Origin: Syntrophomonadaceae bacterium
Lineage (GTDB): Bacteria; Bacillota_B; Syntrophomonadia; Syntrophomonadales; Syntrophomonadaceae
Direction: 5' to 3'
NCBI GenBank assembly: GCA_030627145.1
Contig: DAOUSQ010000054.1
Span: forward strand, 1-6,994
Length of the DNA: 6,994 bases
Shown here: piece by piece, positions 931-6,931 of the stretch
How positions within the stretch are numbered: the first letter of the stretch is position 1
How the letters are laid out: each line of letters opens with the position of its first letter
The notes under the pieces: generated by a model
Told to the model about the DNA's origin: nothing
The model's input: the letters and a program-made list of their open reading frames with translations, nothing else
Databases searched by the model: none
Program-made: the position numbers and the translations under genes

Positions 931-1560
931 CTATAATTTGAATATATCGGCTTCTGCTTTCTGAACCGCGTTTACAAACATCTCAACTTTCAAAGGATCT
1001 TTTCCTCTTTGAGGAAATTCAACTCCACTGGAAACATCTACTGCCATAGGCCGAACATTTCTTACGACTGTAGCTACGTTCTCATGATTAAGCCCTCCAG
1101 CCAGTATTATCCGTTCCAGTTCTTTTATTTTTTCAAGCCACTGCCAGTCAAAGCTGATTCCACTCCCGCCTCGCACAGCAGGACTAAATGTATCAAAAAG
1201 ATAAGCCCAGGGATGCCACTGCTTCACATAGTCAGGGTCAACTGGACCGGTAACACTAAAGCTTTTTATAACCGGAATATTTAATTCTTCCACATACTCA
1301 GGAGACTCATCACCATGCAGCTGTACAATATCCAGAGAACATGTCTGTGCTATATATTTAACAGAATCTATTTTTTCATTTACAAATACACCGATTTTAA
1401 AAACACCTGTATCCAACTGGTGGTTTATTTCAGCAGCCTTTTCCACCTCTATTTGCCGGGGAGAAGCAGCAAAAACTTCTCCAATAGCCCAAACCCCAAA
1501 GCTGCTTACCATTTTTGCTTCTTCTAAAGTTCTTATCCCGCATATCTTAATTCTCGTCAT
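931..1560 (-). CDS. trpF: phosphoribosylanthranilate isomerase
   Basis: TrpF performs the Amadori rearrangement of N-(5-phosphoribosyl)anthranilate to CdRP, the third step of tryptophan synthesis, in a single TIM-barrel domain. The 209-residue length is normal. KICGIR (5-10) carries the catalytic Cys7. VQLHGDE (79-85), LFDTFSP (121-127, catalytic Asp123), SFDW (136-139), ILAGGLNHENV (152-162) and VDVSSGVE (174-181) match the family and its phosphate-binding loops. The start codon shares an ATGA with the trpC stop, so translation is probably coupled; GAGGGG sits 5 nt upstream of the ATG. Slight oddities are Trp24 and Glu28 in GVWAIGEVF, where relatives usually have GADALGFVF. These residues lie outside the catalytic pair and the frame is intact, so I take it as functional. 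Confidence 0.97.
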   Translation of the reverse strand: MTRIKICGIRTLEEAKMVSSFGVWAIGEVFAASPRQIEVEKAAEINHQLDTGVFKIGVFVNEKIDSVKYIAQTCSLDIVQLHGDESPEYVEELNIPVIKSFSVTGPVDPDYVKQWHPWAYLFDTFSPAVRGGSGISFDWQWLEKIKELERIILAGGLNHENVATVVRNVRPMAVDVSSGVEFPQRGKDPLKVEMFVNAVQKAEADIFKL

Positions 1561-2339
1561 ATTTTCCCCTCTTCCCGGTAATGTACTAATTCCCTCAGTT
1601 TCTCGCCAGGATTAGAGGCCCTTACCAGGGTTTCCCCAATCAGGGCAGCACTAAATCCATTCTCTTCTAATAATTTTAAGTCCTGGACTGACTTTATCCC
1701 GCTTTCACTAACCTTAATTAAAGAATCCGGTATCGATTCTCCAAGTTCCAGACTGTTATTGATATCAACAGTAAAATCTTTAAGATTGCGGTTATTTATA
1801 CCTATCATACGAACGGGTAAATCCAGGGCAAGTTGTAACTCTGTAGGATCATGAACCTCCACCAGCGGCTCAAGCCTAATTTCCAGACTTTTTTCACTAA
1901 GGTACAGTAATTTTTCATAGTCAAATAAAGCAGCAATCAACAAAACCAGGTCCGCACCCAGCTGTAATGATTCATATAACTGCAGTTCATGAATAATAAA
2001 ATCTTTGCGTAACAGCGGGATATTAACTTCCTTCCTCACCTCTTGCAGATATTCCCTGCTGCCTTCAAAAAAATTTTTCTCGGTTATTACTGAAATTATG
2101 GAAGCTCCATTATCAACATAATCGTGAGCTCTTGTCCGCGGATCAAATTCTTCACATAACATTCCCTTTATCGGGGAGGCTTTCTTAAGTTCAGCTATAA
2201 CTGCTACCTCCCCATTTTTTTCTTTAAAAAATTTATAAGGTTCAAAACATTGAATTTTAGGTTCAATGTTATCTATATTCAGTGAAGCTATTAACTCTTT
2301 TATCTCAGGCTTTTTCGCTTCTACAATACGATTTAACAT
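1557..2339 (-). CDS. trpC: indole-3-glycerol-phosphate synthase
   Basis: TrpC closes the ring of CdRP to give indole-3-glycerol phosphate, releasing CO2 and water. At 260 residues it is a normal-length, single-function enzyme, not the fused TrpC-TrpF of enterobacteria. The catalytic set is visible: Glu50 and Lys52 in IAELKKASPIKG (48-59), Lys112 in RKDF (111-114), Glu161 in LVEVHD, the asparagines of GINNRN (180-185), Glu212 in VSESGIKS (210-217) and the phosphate-binding IGETLVRA (234-241). The usual KxSPSKG loop reads KASPIKG here, a mild change. The gene overlaps the end of trpD by 7 bp in another frame and overlaps trpF by 4 bp. AAGGTG lies 5 nt before its ATG, inside trpD. Confidence 0.97.
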   Translation of the reverse strand: MLNRIVEAKKPEIKELIASLNIDNIEPKIQCFEPYKFFKEKNGEVAVIAELKKASPIKGMLCEEFDPRTRAHDYVDNGASIISVITEKNFFEGSREYLQEVRKEVNIPLLRKDFIIHELQLYESLQLGADLVLLIAALFDYEKLLYLSEKSLEIRLEPLVEVHDPTELQLALDLPVRMIGINNRNLKDFTVDINNSLELGESIPDSLIKVSESGIKSVQDLKLLEENGFSAALIGETLVRASNPGEKLRELVHYREEGKI

Positions 2340-3355
2340 TTTAACACCTTATCTCTGCTGTAGCTTATTAAATTCAGTAAAGTAGCCTTTGCTTTTCCAG
2401 AATCTATAGCCTCACAAGCCATTTCCATTCCCTCTTCCATGTCTTTGACCCGACCTGCAGTCATCAAAGCTGCAGCAGCATTCAAGACAACAGTATCCCT
2501 GTATGGTCCGGTTTTTCCCTCCAATACCTGCTGTATTATTCCGGCATTCGTTTGAATTTCCCCGCCTTTGATTGAATCCAGAGAAAAAGGAGTAATACCT
2601 AACTGCAGCGGGTCAATATCATAAATACTTAAACCCTCGGTCTTTATATCATAAACCCTGGTACCGCAAATAGGGCTAATTTCATCCATGCCATTTTCAG
2701 CATAAACTACCATGGACCTCTTGCGTCCCAAATGAAGAAGTGTTTCGGCAAGCGCTTCCTGCAGAGTAGGATCAGCAATCCCTACAACCTGATAAGAAAG
2801 CTTAAATGGATTTAATAAAGGCCCTAAAAAATTGAATATAGTTGCAACTCCTATTTGACGCCGCAATTTGCCAACCTGCTTGAGAATAGGATGATAATTA
2901 GGTGCAAAAAGAAAAGTAATTCCGACTTTATCCAGCAAATGCCGTGCCTCATCAGGACTGAGTTGAATATTAACACCTAACGCTTCCAGGACATCTGCGC
3001 TGCCTACTTTGCTCGTAGCAGCCCGGTTGCCGTGTTTAGCCACCGGCACTCCACAACTTGCAACAACCAGAGCTGCTGCAGTAGATATATTAAAAGTGCT
3101 TAAACCATCTCCACCTGTACCACAGGTATCAATAAGCTCTAAATCAGTATCAATTGTTATAGCCTCTTCATACAGTGCTTGAACAAAACCACCTATTTCT
3201 TCAGCTTTTTCTTTTCGTGTGCGCATCGCACTTACAAAAGCAGCTGCTTTTACTTCAAGAATATTATCATGTAAAAGCATTTTTGCTGCTGAATACGCCT
3301 CTTCAATATTTAAACTTTCTCCCCCTACTACTTTCTTTAAATAATTTTCAAACAT
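2333..3355 (-). CDS. trpD: anthranilate phosphoribosyltransferase
   Basis: TrpD transfers the phosphoribosyl group of PRPP to anthranilate, the second committed step of tryptophan synthesis. The 340-residue protein is the stand-alone form, not fused to TrpG. The N-terminal helical region is followed by the PRPP-binding DTCGTGGDGLSTFNIST (76-92), the KHGNRAATSKVGSADVLE block (107-124) and the anthranilate-site region FAPNYHP...GKLRRQIGVATIFNFLGPLLNP (150-183). GMDEIS (222-227) is the family's conserved acidic segment. The start at 3355 is preceded by AGGAG with an 8-nt spacer. That Shine-Dalgarno is the last element of a run of GAG/UAG triplets, so initiation of this gene in particular may be blocked by a TRAP-like protein. 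It is the only trp gene here, apart from trpE, with a real upstream gap (56 bp). Confidence 0.97.
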   Translation of the reverse strand: MFENYLKKVVGGESLNIEEAYSAAKMLLHDNILEVKAAAFVSAMRTRKEKAEEIGGFVQALYEEAITIDTDLELIDTCGTGGDGLSTFNISTAAALVVASCGVPVAKHGNRAATSKVGSADVLEALGVNIQLSPDEARHLLDKVGITFLFAPNYHPILKQVGKLRRQIGVATIFNFLGPLLNPFKLSYQVVGIADPTLQEALAETLLHLGRKRSMVVYAENGMDEISPICGTRVYDIKTEGLSIYDIDPLQLGITPFSLDSIKGGEIQTNAGIIQQVLEGKTGPYRDTVVLNAAAALMTAGRVKDMEEGMEMACEAIDSGKAKATLLNLISYSRDKVLKC

Positions 3356-3363
3356 TTAAAATT

Positions 3364-3391
3364 CTCCTCTCATCTAATCTCTTCTCATCTC
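3364..3391 (-). promoter_or_regulatory. TRAP-like RNA-binding site over the trpD ribosome-binding site
   Basis: Read on the minus strand, six triplets follow one another with exactly two bases between each: GAG (3391-3389), GAG (3386-3384), GAG (3381-3379), UAG (3376-3374), GAG (3371-3369) and GAG (3366-3364). The spacers are AU, AA, AU, AU and AG. The last GAG, with the preceding AG, forms the trpD Shine-Dalgarno AGGAG. TRAP (MtrB), the tryptophan-activated 11-subunit ring of Bacillus, binds GAG/UAG triplets spaced 2-3 nt apart, and in B. subtilis it represses translation of trpG and trpP by covering their ribosome sites this way. The layout is seen directly; binding by an MtrB homologue is inferred, since mtrB is not in the window. 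Six triplets are fewer than the 9-11 of the Bacillus sites. Confidence 0.7.
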
Positions 3392-3411: not shown

Positions 3412-4005
3412 TTATGAAACACTCTGTCCTTTCCACTGGTCTTTTAGACCTAAGAAATTACTGAGCAGCTTCTTTCCTTCAACAGTCATAATCGATTCAG
3501 GATGAAATTGAACTCCTTCAACAGGTAAATACCGGTGTCTAACCCCCATAATTTCCCCTTCCTCACTACGGGCGCTTATTTCCAAACAAGGGGGGAGAAA
3601 TTCCTCTTCAACAGCCAGGGAATGGTAACGGGTAGCAGTAAAGGGTTCACTGAGGCCTTTATAAACAGTACGTCCATCATGATATATTGGCGAAACTTTC
3701 CCATGCATTAAGCGATAATTTATTACAATTCGACCACCAAATGCATAAGCTATTGCTTGATGTCCCAAACACACACCAAGAATTGGTATTCTACCGGAAA
3801 ACTTCTTTATAATCGGCACCGAAATACCAGCCTCCCGAGGACTGCAGGGTCCAGGTGAAATAACAATAGCAGTAGGGCCAAGTTTGGTAATTTCATCTGT
3901 GCTTACAGCATCATTCTTCACCACCAGCACTTCTTCCCCGAGTTCTTCAAAATATTGGACAAGGTTATAGGTAAATGAATCATAGTTATCTAACATTAAA
4001 ATCAC
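3412..4005 (-). CDS. trpG: anthranilate synthase component II (glutamine amidotransferase)
   Basis: TrpG hydrolyses glutamine and channels ammonia to TrpE for anthranilate formation. It is a class I amidotransferase of 197 residues, the usual length. The triad is present: Cys79 in GVCLGHQ (77-83), and His168 and Glu170 in VQFHPES (165-171). The oxyanion-hole loop SPGPCSP (50-56) and MHGKVSPI (100-107) are also intact. The start is GTG at 4005: the protein then begins MILMLDNYDSFTYN, as its relatives do, and GGAGG of the trpE 3' end lies 7 nt upstream. An ATG three codons later is the weaker alternative. Only two bases separate it from the trpE stop, so the two subunits are probably translationally coupled. 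No separate pab genes are seen, so a dual PabA role in folate synthesis is possible, as in B. subtilis. Confidence 0.97.
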   Translation of the reverse strand: MILMLDNYDSFTYNLVQYFEELGEEVLVVKNDAVSTDEITKLGPTAIVISPGPCSPREAGISVPIIKKFSGRIPILGVCLGHQAIAYAFGGRIVINYRLMHGKVSPIYHDGRTVYKGLSEPFTATRYHSLAVEEEFLPPCLEISARSEEGEIMGVRHRYLPVEGVQFHPESIMTVEGKKLLSNFLGLKDQWKGQSVS

Positions 4006-4007
4006 TT

Positions 4008-5501
4008 TTACTCCTCCGCCTTCTTTATCGCCAGCATAAGTGCCCGGGCCTTATTCAAAGTTTCTGCATGTTCATTTTCGGGAACAGAATCGGCAACAAT
4101 TCCAGCACCACTTTGCAGGTAATAAGTACCATTTTTATATAAAATTGACCTGATAGTTATACATGAATCCAGGAACCCATCAAAGGAAACAAAACCTGCC
4201 GCGCCTCCATAAGGTCCCCGGGGAACATTTTCCAGTTTATCTATAATTTCCATCGCCTTACGTTTGGGCGCCCCGGAAAGAGTACCCGCTGGGAAACAAG
4301 CCTTAAATGCTTCCAGAGCATCCATCTCTGGTTTAAGCTCACCCTCTACACCAGAAACTATGTGTACTACATGTGAATATTGTTCAAGCGTCATAAATTC
4401 ACTTATTGTCACTGTTCCCGCCCGACTTACCCGGCCCACATCATTACGACTTAAATCAACCAGCATAAGGTGCTCCGCTTTCTCCTTTTCATCTGCCAGT
4501 AATTCTTCTCCCATGATCTTATCAACATTTTTATCGCCCGTAATTTTACGGGTACCGGCTATAGGTCTGCTTTTAATACGACCATTTTCTATCTTAACCT
4601 GCATCTCAGGGGAAGCCCCCATTAGAACAGAATCGGGCAGCATATAATAAAACATATAAGGAGAAGGATTTAAACTGCGCAAATTCAGGTATACCTGCCA
4701 GGGATCAGCTTCACTTCTCTTCTTCCATCGTCTTGACAAAACAACCTGGAAAATATCGCCCTGCCTGATATGCTCCCGGGCCTGCTTTACCAGATTACAG
4801 AATTCTTCTTTTGTAACATTCACTTCAAATTCATCATCTAAATGCTTTTCATTCCTGCTATAGCTGTATTTTTTATCTTCCCCCTGATAATTCGAAGCCT
4901 GAAGTAACAGACTATCCAGCCGCTGATAGGCGTTCTTGTATACTATTTCTTCTGCCGCTTTACAAGTTCTAACCCATAAGATAGCAGTAAGCAGATGATT
5001 ATACCGGTCATAAACCAGAATTTCTCCAGGCATGAAAAAATATTGTCCTAAAAGACTGTTTTTTTGGCTGATAAGATTCTGATAATTTAGTCCGGCTTCA
5101 TATGTCCAGTAACCTATGAGCCCTCCACTGAAGAAGGGAAATTTAAGAAAAGGAACACGTGTTACCCTCAAAAATTCTTGAAATTTATCTTTATCCTGGG
5201 GATTATCTAGATATGAAGTGAGTTCAAGCAATGAATTAGAGGCAATAATAGAATAGCGCCCGTTTTCATGGCCGCTTAGGCTTTCCAGTAGACAGGAAGG
5301 CTTTGATGGATTCATTGATTTAAATAAATCGACTATATTTAAATCCTTCAGCCTGATCTGGGCGTAAAGAGGCACATAATCATAATTTTGGGACATAGCA
5401 ATGAATGTATCCCGGTTTGGAAAAACTACTGCCCCGGAAACAGGCAAACAAAAACCAGCACGATTCAATATGCTGGTATGGTGAAATTCACACCTGCTCA
5501 T
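4008..5501 (-). CDS. trpE: anthranilate synthase component I
   Basis: TrpE converts chorismate and ammonia to anthranilate, the first committed step to tryptophan. Counted from the start chosen here it has 497 residues. LLESLSG (71-77) is the tryptophan feedback-site motif. The chorismate-utilising domain carries RQGDIFQVVLSRRW (246-259), NPSPYMFYY (278-286), GASPEM (295-300), RPIAGTRK (312-319), LVDLSRND (347-354), YSHVVHIVSGVEG (375-387), FPAGTLSGAPK (403-413) and QSGAGIVADS (463-472). All are conserved, so it should be active and feedback-sensitive. The start is uncertain: the ATG at 5501 has AAAGGAG 11 nt upstream, while an in-frame ATG at 5525 would add eight residues encoded by the GAG-repeat leader and lacks a proper Shine-Dalgarno. 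Either way there is a 25-30 residue N-terminal extension before the segment (VVFPNRDTF) where most TrpE proteins begin. Confidence 0.96.
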   Translation of the reverse strand: MSRCEFHHTSILNRAGFCLPVSGAVVFPNRDTFIAMSQNYDYVPLYAQIRLKDLNIVDLFKSMNPSKPSCLLESLSGHENGRYSIIASNSLLELTSYLDNPQDKDKFQEFLRVTRVPFLKFPFFSGGLIGYWTYEAGLNYQNLISQKNSLLGQYFFMPGEILVYDRYNHLLTAILWVRTCKAAEEIVYKNAYQRLDSLLLQASNYQGEDKKYSYSRNEKHLDDEFEVNVTKEEFCNLVKQAREHIRQGDIFQVVLSRRWKKRSEADPWQVYLNLRSLNPSPYMFYYMLPDSVLMGASPEMQVKIENGRIKSRPIAGTRKITGDKNVDKIMGEELLADEKEKAEHLMLVDLSRNDVGRVSRAGTVTISEFMTLEQYSHVVHIVSGVEGELKPEMDALEAFKACFPAGTLSGAPKRKAMEIIDKLENVPRGPYGGAAGFVSFDGFLDSCITIRSILYKNGTYYLQSGAGIVADSVPENEHAETLNKARALMLAIKKAEE

Positions 5502-5538
5502 CTCATCATTCTCTCCTTTACTCATCTCATCTCATCTC
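5497..5538 (-). promoter_or_regulatory. TRAP-like GAG-repeat site over the trpE ribosome-binding site and start
   Basis: The minus-strand RNA contains GAGAUGAGAUGAGAUGAG (5538-5521), the idealised TRAP ligand pattern of GAG triplets with AU spacers. The period of five continues through AAG (5518-5516) to GAG (5513-5511). After a 6-nt gap come GAG (5504-5502) and GAG (5499-5497). That is seven GAG and one weaker AAG. The array contains the AAAGGAG Shine-Dalgarno (5519-5513) and the ATG at 5501, so a protein bound here would shut off trpE initiation. On the plus strand the core reads as a tandem CTCAT repeat. The repeat is certain; its role as a TRAP site is inferred from pattern and position. 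Confidence 0.7.
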
Positions 5539-5571: not shown

Positions 5572-5600
5572 ACTATAACTTAAATCAAATTTTCTGTCAA
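5572..5600 (-). promoter_or_regulatory. sigma-A-type promoter of the trp operon
   Basis: A consensus -35 TTGACA (5600-5595) is followed after exactly 17 bp by TATAGT (5577-5572), one base off TATAAT. Transcription would begin near 5565-5567, giving a leader of about 65 nt to the trpE ATG at 5501. No other comparably good promoter is seen ahead of trpE. The surrounding bases are very AT-rich, as expected for an UP-like region. Confidence 0.85.
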
Positions 5601-5647
5601 TATATTATGGTATAATTTATTTGCCAGTATTTGGTAGGCGTAAGTCT

Positions 5648-5818
5648 CTACAAATTATTCCCTCCAGCCAATAACACTATCAACCCAGAAAAAATCAGCA
5701 TGACACCCAGGAAAGAAAATATTGACAGTCTTTCCCCACGAACTATGAACCCGAGCATAGCCCCGGTTAAAGGTTCAGCCAGAGTAAGTGTAACTGCATT
5801 GGAAGCAGGAATTTTCTT
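5648..5818 (-). pseudogene. C-terminal remnant of an EamA/DMT-family membrane transporter
   Basis: The minus strand encodes about 56 residues ending at a TAG (5650-5648). They begin KKIPASNAVTLTLAEPLT, continue through GAMLGFIVRGERLS and end in a hydrophobic helix LGVMLIFSGLIVLLAGG. The pattern 'IPAS-A-TL-L-EPL-A-LG---GE-LS' followed by a last membrane helix is characteristic of the end of the second EamA domain (drug/metabolite exporters of about 300 residues with 10 helices). The other nine helices are missing. The frame stays open upstream to a TAA at 5923-5921, but that part is lysine-rich, AT-biased and unlike the family, and it has no start codon. I read this as the tail of a transporter gene lost by deletion just upstream of the trp promoter. 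Confidence 0.75.
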
Positions 5819-5851
5819 CGCAGATGCAAGGGAGCGTTCTTTTTGCTTCTT

Positions 5852-5875
5852 TTTTTCTATATATTTTTCTATATA
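5852..5875. repeat. 12-bp tandem repeat, two copies, AT-rich
   Basis: TTTTTCTATATA occurs twice back to back (5852-5863 and 5864-5875), followed by further TATA. It lies in the non-coding scar between the transporter remnant and the hypothetical fragment. It is probably slippage-generated low-complexity sequence; no function is evident. Confidence 0.7.
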
Positions 5876-5944
5876 TAATGAAGCAAGGTTATAATGCTGG
5901 AACTTCTCCTGATAATCCTTTTAAACTTTCTATTTTAAACCTTT

Positions 5945-6326: not shown

Positions 6327-6653
6327 TCAATTATTTCTTTCCATATTGGCAATTAAAGAAGGTAAATCTTCTTGAATCGTTTTCCAGATAATATCTAAAT
6401 CTACCCCCCAGTATTCGTGAATTAATATATTCCTAATCCCACGCATTGCATTCCATGGAATACCGGGATACTGTTCCTGAATTTCATCTGAAACATGCGT
6501 CGCTGCCTCTCCAATGATTTCCAAATTTCGAAGCACTGCATCAACAACTTGTTCATTATTTATAAACTCATCATAAGTTAAATTATCAGTATAGCGAATA
6601 ATTTTTATGGTAGATTCCCTGATATCATCAAAGTATAGGAGATGGTCTCTCAT
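6327..6653 (-). CDS. hepT: HepT-like HEPN-domain ribonuclease toxin (DUF86 family)
   Basis: At 108 residues this is a typical all-helical HepT/DUF86 protein. HEPN toxins cut RNA using an R-X4-6-H-X-Y motif; here it is RNILIHEY, with Arg74, His79 and Tyr81. Family hallmarks around it are also present: AVLRNLEIIGEAA (39-51), PGIPWNAMRGIRN (63-75) and WKTI followed by LPSL (97-100). In the characterised Shewanella pair the antitoxin MntA adds AMP units to the Tyr of this motif and so silences the nuclease; the intact Tyr81 fits that mechanism. The start overlaps the mntA stop by four bases (ATGA), the usual order of antitoxin first. The protein appears complete. A toxin role is inferred from family and partner. 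Confidence 0.88.
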   Translation of the reverse strand: MRDHLLYFDDIRESTIKIIRYTDNLTYDEFINNEQVVDAVLRNLEIIGEAATHVSDEIQEQYPGIPWNAMRGIRNILIHEYWGVDLDIIWKTIQEDLPSLIANMERNN

Positions 6654-6931
6654 ATATCAACCACTTCCTTAAGTATGCGCTCCCTTATTCTTGGTTTCAC
6701 AGCTTTTTCAGTAACTAAATCCACCTTGCGATGTAATATTTTTTCTAAGGTTTCCTTCAGTTCCACAAATGCAAAAAGGCTAACAGGTTCTAAAAATTCG
6801 ACCAGCAAGTCAACATCACTGTCCTCATTTTCCTCACCACGAGCAAAGGAACCAAAAACTCCAATTTTTTTCACTTTATATGTTTCACCCAGTTCTGATA
6901 AATGCGGTCTGATAGTCTCGATTGGGTTCAT
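6650..6931 (-). CDS. mntA: MntA-like minimal nucleotidyltransferase antitoxin
   Basis: This 93-residue protein belongs to the DNA polymerase beta-like minimal nucleotidyltransferases. The signature G-S-X10-D-X-D is visible as GSFARGEENEDSDVDLLVEF, with Gly27, Ser28, Asp39 and Asp41. A third acidic residue, Asp71, sits in RKVDLVT. It should use ATP to AMPylate the partner HepT toxin and neutralise it. The start at 6931 has AAGGGGG 7 nt upstream, a strong ribosome site. It overlaps hepT by 4 bp, so the two are co-translated. The 63 bp upstream to the window end are AT-rich without a convincing promoter, so the promoter may lie outside. Confidence 0.88.
   Translation of the reverse strand: MNPIETIRPHLSELGETYKVKKIGVFGSFARGEENEDSDVDLLVEFLEPVSLFAFVELKETLEKILHRKVDLVTEKAVKPRIRERILKEVVDI

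Follow-up and report, generated by a model that had tools for sequence, protein, structure and literature searches.

In the trp operon analysed here, six (G/U)AG triplets lying just ahead of trpD very probably form a site at which TRAP, activated by tryptophan, binds the polycistronic trp mRNA; this would repress the translation of trpD, trpC and trpF in addition to the attenuator predicted at the 5' end of the same transcript. This reading draws on observations of the array itself, of its position over the trpD Shine-Dalgarno sequence, of its recurrence in relatives, of its association with a TRAP gene and of its rarity elsewhere. From them we infer that TRAP binds the trpD array and represses translation there, with trpC and trpF coupled to trpD. 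TRAP itself is presumed in the organism of the window because it is in relatives that the protein has been shown.

The trpD array in the window

The window, that is, the whole stretch of 6,994 nucleotides that was analysed, encodes on its minus strand trpE, trpG, trpD, trpC and trpF, followed by a DAHP synthase gene truncated by the end of the contig. Its TrpD shows up to 78% identity to other proteins, and the nearest named one (74%) comes from a Syntrophomonadaceae bacterium. The features that the argument needs are the following:

5572..5600, minus strand: operon promoter, TTGACA-17-TATAGT (11/12), the best promoter-like match in the window
5497..5538, minus strand: TRAP-like array of the trpE leader, with 4 strict GAG triplets (5538..5521) and more GAGs over the trpE Shine-Dalgarno sequence and start
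5467..5502, minus strand: predicted antiterminator, whose 5' arm includes the final GAG of the trpE leader array
5454..5477, minus strand: intrinsic-terminator-like hairpin, within the first trpE codons if trpE starts at 5501
4008..5501, minus strand: trpE (Pfam), with the start placed by eye at ATG 5501 (MSR...) by comparison with close relatives; the ORF as listed runs from 5525
3412..4005, minus strand: trpG, glutamine amidotransferase (ORF list, Pfam), ending 56 nt before trpD
3364..3391, minus strand: array of six (G/U)AG triplets, predicted internal TRAP site (chain scan, shuffles, counterparts in relatives)
3364..3371, minus strand: trpD Shine-Dalgarno sequence GAGAGGAG, read from the sequence, equal to the last two array triplets and 8 nt before the ATG at 3355
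2333..3355, minus strand: trpD, anthranilate phosphoribosyltransferase (Pfam; TIGR01245)
1557..2339, minus strand: trpC, overlapping the end of trpD (ORF list, Pfam)
931..1560, minus strand: trpF, overlapping the end of trpC (ORF list, Pfam)

Elsewhere on the minus strand of the window, a HepT-like gene is paired with a nucleotidyltransferase gene at 6327-6931 (Pfam), presumably a HepT/MNT toxin-antitoxin module, and at about 5630-5900 there is an open frame (...AEPLTGAMLGFIVRGERLSIFSFLGVMLIFSGLIVLLAGGNNL) that is hydrophobic, lacks a clear start and, as we take it, resembles the tail of a drug/metabolite transporter.

A preliminary description of this DNA had claimed six GAG/UAG triplets with perfect two-base spacers that end in the trpD Shine-Dalgarno sequence. 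Both the reading of the sequence and a chain scan confirm them on the minus strand from 3391 to 3364 (GAG-AT-GAG-AA-GAG-AT-TAG-AT-GAG-AG-GAG), every spacer being exactly 2 nt; the array is followed by AATTTTAA and then by the trpD ATG at 3355. The number of triplets stays at six when any NAG is allowed. Only one other chain of at least four triplets with spacers of 2-3 nt occurs on either strand of the window, namely GAGATGAGATGAGATGAG at 5538..5521, before trpE. Dinucleotide shuffling of the window (1000 rounds, both strands scanned) never produced strict chains of at least five triplets, and those of at least four averaged 0.01. When the 56-nt gap between trpG and trpD was itself shuffled 20,000 times by dinucleotides, nine chains of five and none of six resulted. 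The same description had held that such a periodic design at both trpE and trpD was unlikely to arise by chance, and the shuffles of window and gap, which never gave six triplets, bear this out.

TRAP targets are described as GAG/UAG repeats separated by 2 or 3 spacer nucleotides (PMC3913778), and the trpD array, with six triplets all 2 nt apart, shows this spacing. It does not reach the 9-11 repeats quoted for TRAP sites of Bacillus subtilis (PMC4347634), so that it is to be regarded as a short site of the TRAP type and not as one of the canonical long kind; given six triplets here, and mostly 3-6 in relatives, against 9-11 in B. subtilis, its affinity may be low. The triplets overlap the Shine-Dalgarno sequence, as they do in the trpG-type sites that block the ribosome directly. 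When 66 nt around the array were folded, the array stayed mostly unpaired (z +0.92), and in a 131-nt fold it was largely paired (z -0.20). No terminator was found around the array, either in the fold of the region or in the terminator listing, and Rfam yielded a single match, below threshold and to an unrelated family.

Distribution of the arrays and of TRAP among relatives

The phylum of Desulfotruncus alcoholivorax supplied 398 genomes for a TrpD search, of which 309 matched, and the best 92 of these 309 matches were read for chains of (G/T)AG with 2-3 nt spacers between -70 and +15 of the aligned trpD start. The TRAP gene, searched for with PF02081 over the same 398 genomes, was found in 200. 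Results on periodicity, gaps, tree, gene starts and leader length refer to the first 90 genomes (without G158 and G389) or to parts of them.

Among the best 92 of 309, chains of at least three triplets precede trpD in 52/73 genomes with TRAP and in 0/19 without a found TRAP gene, the latter being few and partly akin, with the gene possibly missing from an incomplete assembly. The corresponding figures are 42/73 against 0/19 for at least four triplets and 22/73 against 0/19 for at least five; the remaining 21/73 TRAP genomes have two triplets or fewer. Relatives with chains of at least three mostly hold three to six triplets (one holds nine), and six or more are present in 8 of the 92, which places the six strict triplets of the window among the longest. 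The 12 genomes closest by TrpD all possess TRAP (10 of these were found again in a second look) and all have three to six triplets before trpD. The association between TRAP and the array is not phylogenetically independent, since tree contrasts yield one independent case on well-supported branches and seven on the whole tree, with none in the opposite direction, numbers with which significance cannot be reached.

In the TRAP proteins of 14 genomes, the motifs EKLD(K/R)G and K(I/V)RG, which include RNA-contacting residues, are conserved, and the one that was compared with structures matches solved TRAPs, including the sequence of 1c9s. In 24 of the 41 TRAP genomes measured that have at least four triplets, the distance from the end of the array to the aligned trpD start is 0 to 5 nt. 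The preliminary description had placed a TRAP-like site on the trpD ribosome site, and this placement is supported by an array that goes with the TRAP gene, has a 5-nt period, is rare elsewhere and recurs in 12/12 of the closest relatives.

Among the 80 named loci that were listed, none of which is titled Syntrophomonad, 4 show a chain of at least three triplets: Desulfotruncus (5), Firmicutes UBA2598 (5), Paenibacillus camelliae (4) and Gorillibacterium timonense (3), TRAP status among these four being covered for Desulfotruncus alone. In Desulfotruncus alcoholivorax, five triplets precede trpD and TRAP is present. The four-triplet chain at the trpD start of P. camelliae includes two spacers of 3 nt. 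Paenibacillus mesophilus and Neobacillus niacini possess the TRAP gene, and no chain of at least three was found in their trpD regions; because of the chains in P. camelliae and G. timonense, the Bacilli may not be wholly devoid of such sites.

The arrangement of the genes also differs with TRAP. Counting gaps between -60 and 400 nt from aligned, not annotated, starts, the median distance from trpG to trpD is 43.5 nt in 50 TRAP genomes versus 10 nt in 15 without, and that from trpD to trpC is -1 in 71 TRAP genomes versus 17 in 17 without. This places the internal site where coupling to trpG would be broken, ahead of genes that are often coupled to trpD.

The periodicity expected from such repeats is observed in 72 TRAP genomes, in which pairs of triplets at offsets of 5, 10 and 15 number 208, 145 and 98, against 37.5, 34.8 and 32.1 in shuffles. 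The shuffles are exceeded at offsets 3, 7 and 12 as well (69 vs 26.0, 84 vs 36.5 and 60 vs 34.0), as GAGAG and GAGGAG cores would produce. In 18 genomes without TRAP, three pairs at offset 5 compare with 1.3 in shuffles, and the triplets are too few for judging.

Other gene starts of TRAP genomes rarely carry chains of at least three: trpG in 4/55, trpC in 1/55, trpF in 1/69 and DAHP synthase in 2/14, compared with 14/26 at the listed trpE start. Arrays at DAHP synthase (aroF) starts were seen in two TRAP genomes (L155:7442-7464 and L162:3456-3473). It had been proposed that arrays at many unrelated Shine-Dalgarno sites would mark the trpD array as purine-rich background, and that a genome scan should see whether they cluster at tryptophan genes and transporters. 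In the TRAP genomes among the relatives, arrays at unrelated starts proved rare: 7 of 347 other ORF starts show at least three triplets and 2 of 347 at least four. The scan, done in the 12 closest relatives, placed 24 of 25 strict five-triplet sites at trp genes by hand collation, the remaining one lying inside a phosphoglucomutase-like gene; G244 and G268, scanned among these 12, have no strict site. Of the 24, some lie at trpD, some in trpE-type or trpBA leaders, and others at a TrpB-like gene of 453 aa or ahead of a second trpD operon, in its leader. Family models covered one trpB-trpA pair, the second trpD and two of the four TrpB-like genes, the rest being named by likeness; one site, truncated by its contig end (G219), is assigned to trpE by resemblance only. 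Such arrays are found at tryptophan genes both in the window (trpD, trpE) and in relatives (trpE, trpD, trpBA, the TrpB-like gene and the second trpD).

Over all 398 genomes, strict five-triplet arrays occur anywhere in 154/200 genomes with TRAP (a count that includes one genome added by hand) versus 21/198 without a found TRAP gene, part of the matches being simple repeats in both groups alike; in the 18 genomes without TRAP, the strict pattern appears at one site in one genome. A reversed-pattern control is not independent, since GAG reversed is again GAG; its counts were often similar, and no claim is based on it.

Several of the additional loci deserve description on their own. Arrays of five to seven triplets lie over the start of the stand-alone 453-aa TrpB-like gene in L254, L255, L257 and L259 (identified by NF009057 in L255 and L257 and by sequence likeness in L254 and L259). 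In L256, L258, L261 and L262, trpBA operons come after arrays and a terminator-like sequence (family models for L258 only), and these leader arrays are apparently further TRAP attenuators. A second trpD operon with a leader array of its own is present in G335 (L260), where the downstream ORFs resemble trpC and trpF.

The trpE leader

The antiterminator predicted at 5502-5467 is an alternative hairpin that shares the 5' arm of the terminator. In seven leaders, the antiterminator and terminator pairings, both of them predictions, are kept in 96.1% and 100% of cells, with covariation not above shuffles for either pairing. Folding the upstream part alone gave the antiterminator in six of the seven sequences (all but G169), and folding the full stretch gave the exact terminator hairpin in four (window, G066, G194 and G335) and not in G139, G020 and G169. 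Many shuffles fold as well as the whole window leader (z -0.97); the terminator-like hairpin taken alone does better (z -2.97).

A trpE start downstream of the terminator was considered and dropped, because the frames of close relatives speak for a start at the final GAG of the array, from which trpE would continue in frame across the hairpin. Of fifteen sequences tried, seven (G066, G194, G335, G244, G268, G314 and G105) have a trpE frame of 490 to 501 codons whose start lies at the array or immediately downstream of it and which reads across the hairpin; G139 and G020 yielded a 96-codon frame but no trpE. The window and G169 have an in-frame trpE ATG 5 nt further on (by eye, the frame of the window being taken from the ORF list), G007, G241 and G265 showed no long trpE frame, and G192 gave no match. 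In the close relatives, to which this reading applies, the final GAG of the leader array is the most likely place for trpE to begin (MSR...). There the array covers the predicted trpE start and precedes an attenuator-like pair and, since an antiterminator/terminator-like pair comes after it, it is probably more than a translational site.

Both the leader array with its hairpin and the trpD array are kept in G139 and G020 (L147 and L148), in whose fetched 11 kb trpE and trpG were not found. In these two loci some 480 nt separate the leader array and hairpin from trpD (L148:5540-6100), and a short trpE-like N-terminal frame of 96 codons (MSRYKNLY...) accompanies them. Over 25 TRAP genomes the leader array is longer than the trpD array in 16, equal in 3 and shorter in 6 (median 5 vs 4, p 0.03), so that longer leader arrays are weakly supported.

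Proposed mechanism, alternatives and known TRAP systems

At high tryptophan, TRAP would wrap the six triplets, cover the trpD Shine-Dalgarno sequence and block ribosomes. As each start overlaps the preceding gene, trpC and trpF would fall along with trpD via translational coupling. The internal site would act on mRNA that has escaped the TRAP site of the trpE leader, which is predicted to work by attenuation through the antiterminator and terminator, probably together with covering of the trpE start. The trpG-trpD gap and the overlap with the Shine-Dalgarno sequence make it a sound inference that trpE(G) and trpD(CF) are under separate translational control.

A TRAP-bound site acting mainly on transcription, by TRAP-induced termination or Rho-dependent polarity within the operon and not by ribosome blocking, appears unlikely. 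B. subtilis TRAP is reported to be able to terminate transcription even when the attenuator is mutated or deleted, and an A+U-rich region just 3' of the TRAP site is mentioned in the same source (PMC3913778); here AATTTTAA comes after the array, and polarity could ensue if trpD translation were blocked. However, the array sits on the Shine-Dalgarno sequence, and neither the fold of the region nor the terminator listing contains a terminator. Very little probability is given to a relic, a site that once worked in an organism now lacking TRAP: for the organism of the window TRAP is presumed from relatives, but all 12 nearest relatives possess it, and few relatives (8 of the 92) have as many triplets before trpD as the window.

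GA-rich stretches can help translation initiation, and the array could be a ribosome standby or enhancer site, or be read by another triplet- or purine-binding RNA protein. This is just as improbable as a relic, since trpD is not preceded by such an array in any of the 19 genomes without a found TRAP gene and the 5-nt phase fits the 2 or 3 spacer nucleotides between the repeats of TRAP targets (PMC3913778). As for a purine-rich Shine-Dalgarno background that is periodic by chance, GAG-rich Shine-Dalgarno sequences do exist in these genomes, as the few chains at other ORF starts illustrate; yet the gap shuffles without six triplets, the 5-nt periodicity with its TRAP association, and the near absence of chains at trpC, trpF and other starts leave this explanation largely refuted and extremely improbable.

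Tentatively, repression by TRAP at trpD may be extended to two TRAP rings per trp mRNA, a longer, attenuating leader array and a short, weaker trpD array filled only at higher tryptophan, an extension that we regard as possible though rather doubtful. It would imply a two-step response in a large group of Firmicutes, with TrpE and TrpG set apart from TrpD, TrpC and TrpF, TrpG perhaps serving in folate synthesis too. If the internal site is real, TRAP control would not be limited to leaders and single genes, and an RNA-binding ring could divide up an operon internally. With 52/73 TRAP genomes among the best 92 of 309 showing it, the trait is frequent enough to be tested in reporters, and the natural series of short sites, from three to six triplets and one with nine, would tell how few triplets repress a ribosome site.

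The control of trpD in B. subtilis is explained by coupling to trpE. TRAP of this species is also stated to repress the translation of trpE, trpD and trpG by covering the Shine-Dalgarno sequence (PMC13170310, from 2026, citing a 2005 review). The listings and abstracts of the open-access literature that were searched mention no TRAP site at an internal trpD start. At trpG, trpP (yhaG) and ycbK of B. subtilis, TRAP sites lie in the translation initiation region, where ribosome binding is directly impeded (PMC11255114). The trpD array resembles them in also lying in the initiation region, and it differs in standing within the trp operon, at trpD, with six triplets, and in sharing its mRNA with a 5' leader site. 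TRAP is common to the window's relatives and to the Bacilli P. mesophilus and N. niacini, whereas chains of at least three were not found in the trpD regions of these two Bacilli. The leader of B. subtilis trpEDCFBA, with its 11 triplets and its antiterminator and terminator, is paralleled in the window by the order of promoter, array, antiterminator-like hairpin and terminator-like hairpin; in contrast to that leader, the array of the window extends across the trpE start as inferred, and its terminator-like hairpin falls within trpE codons.
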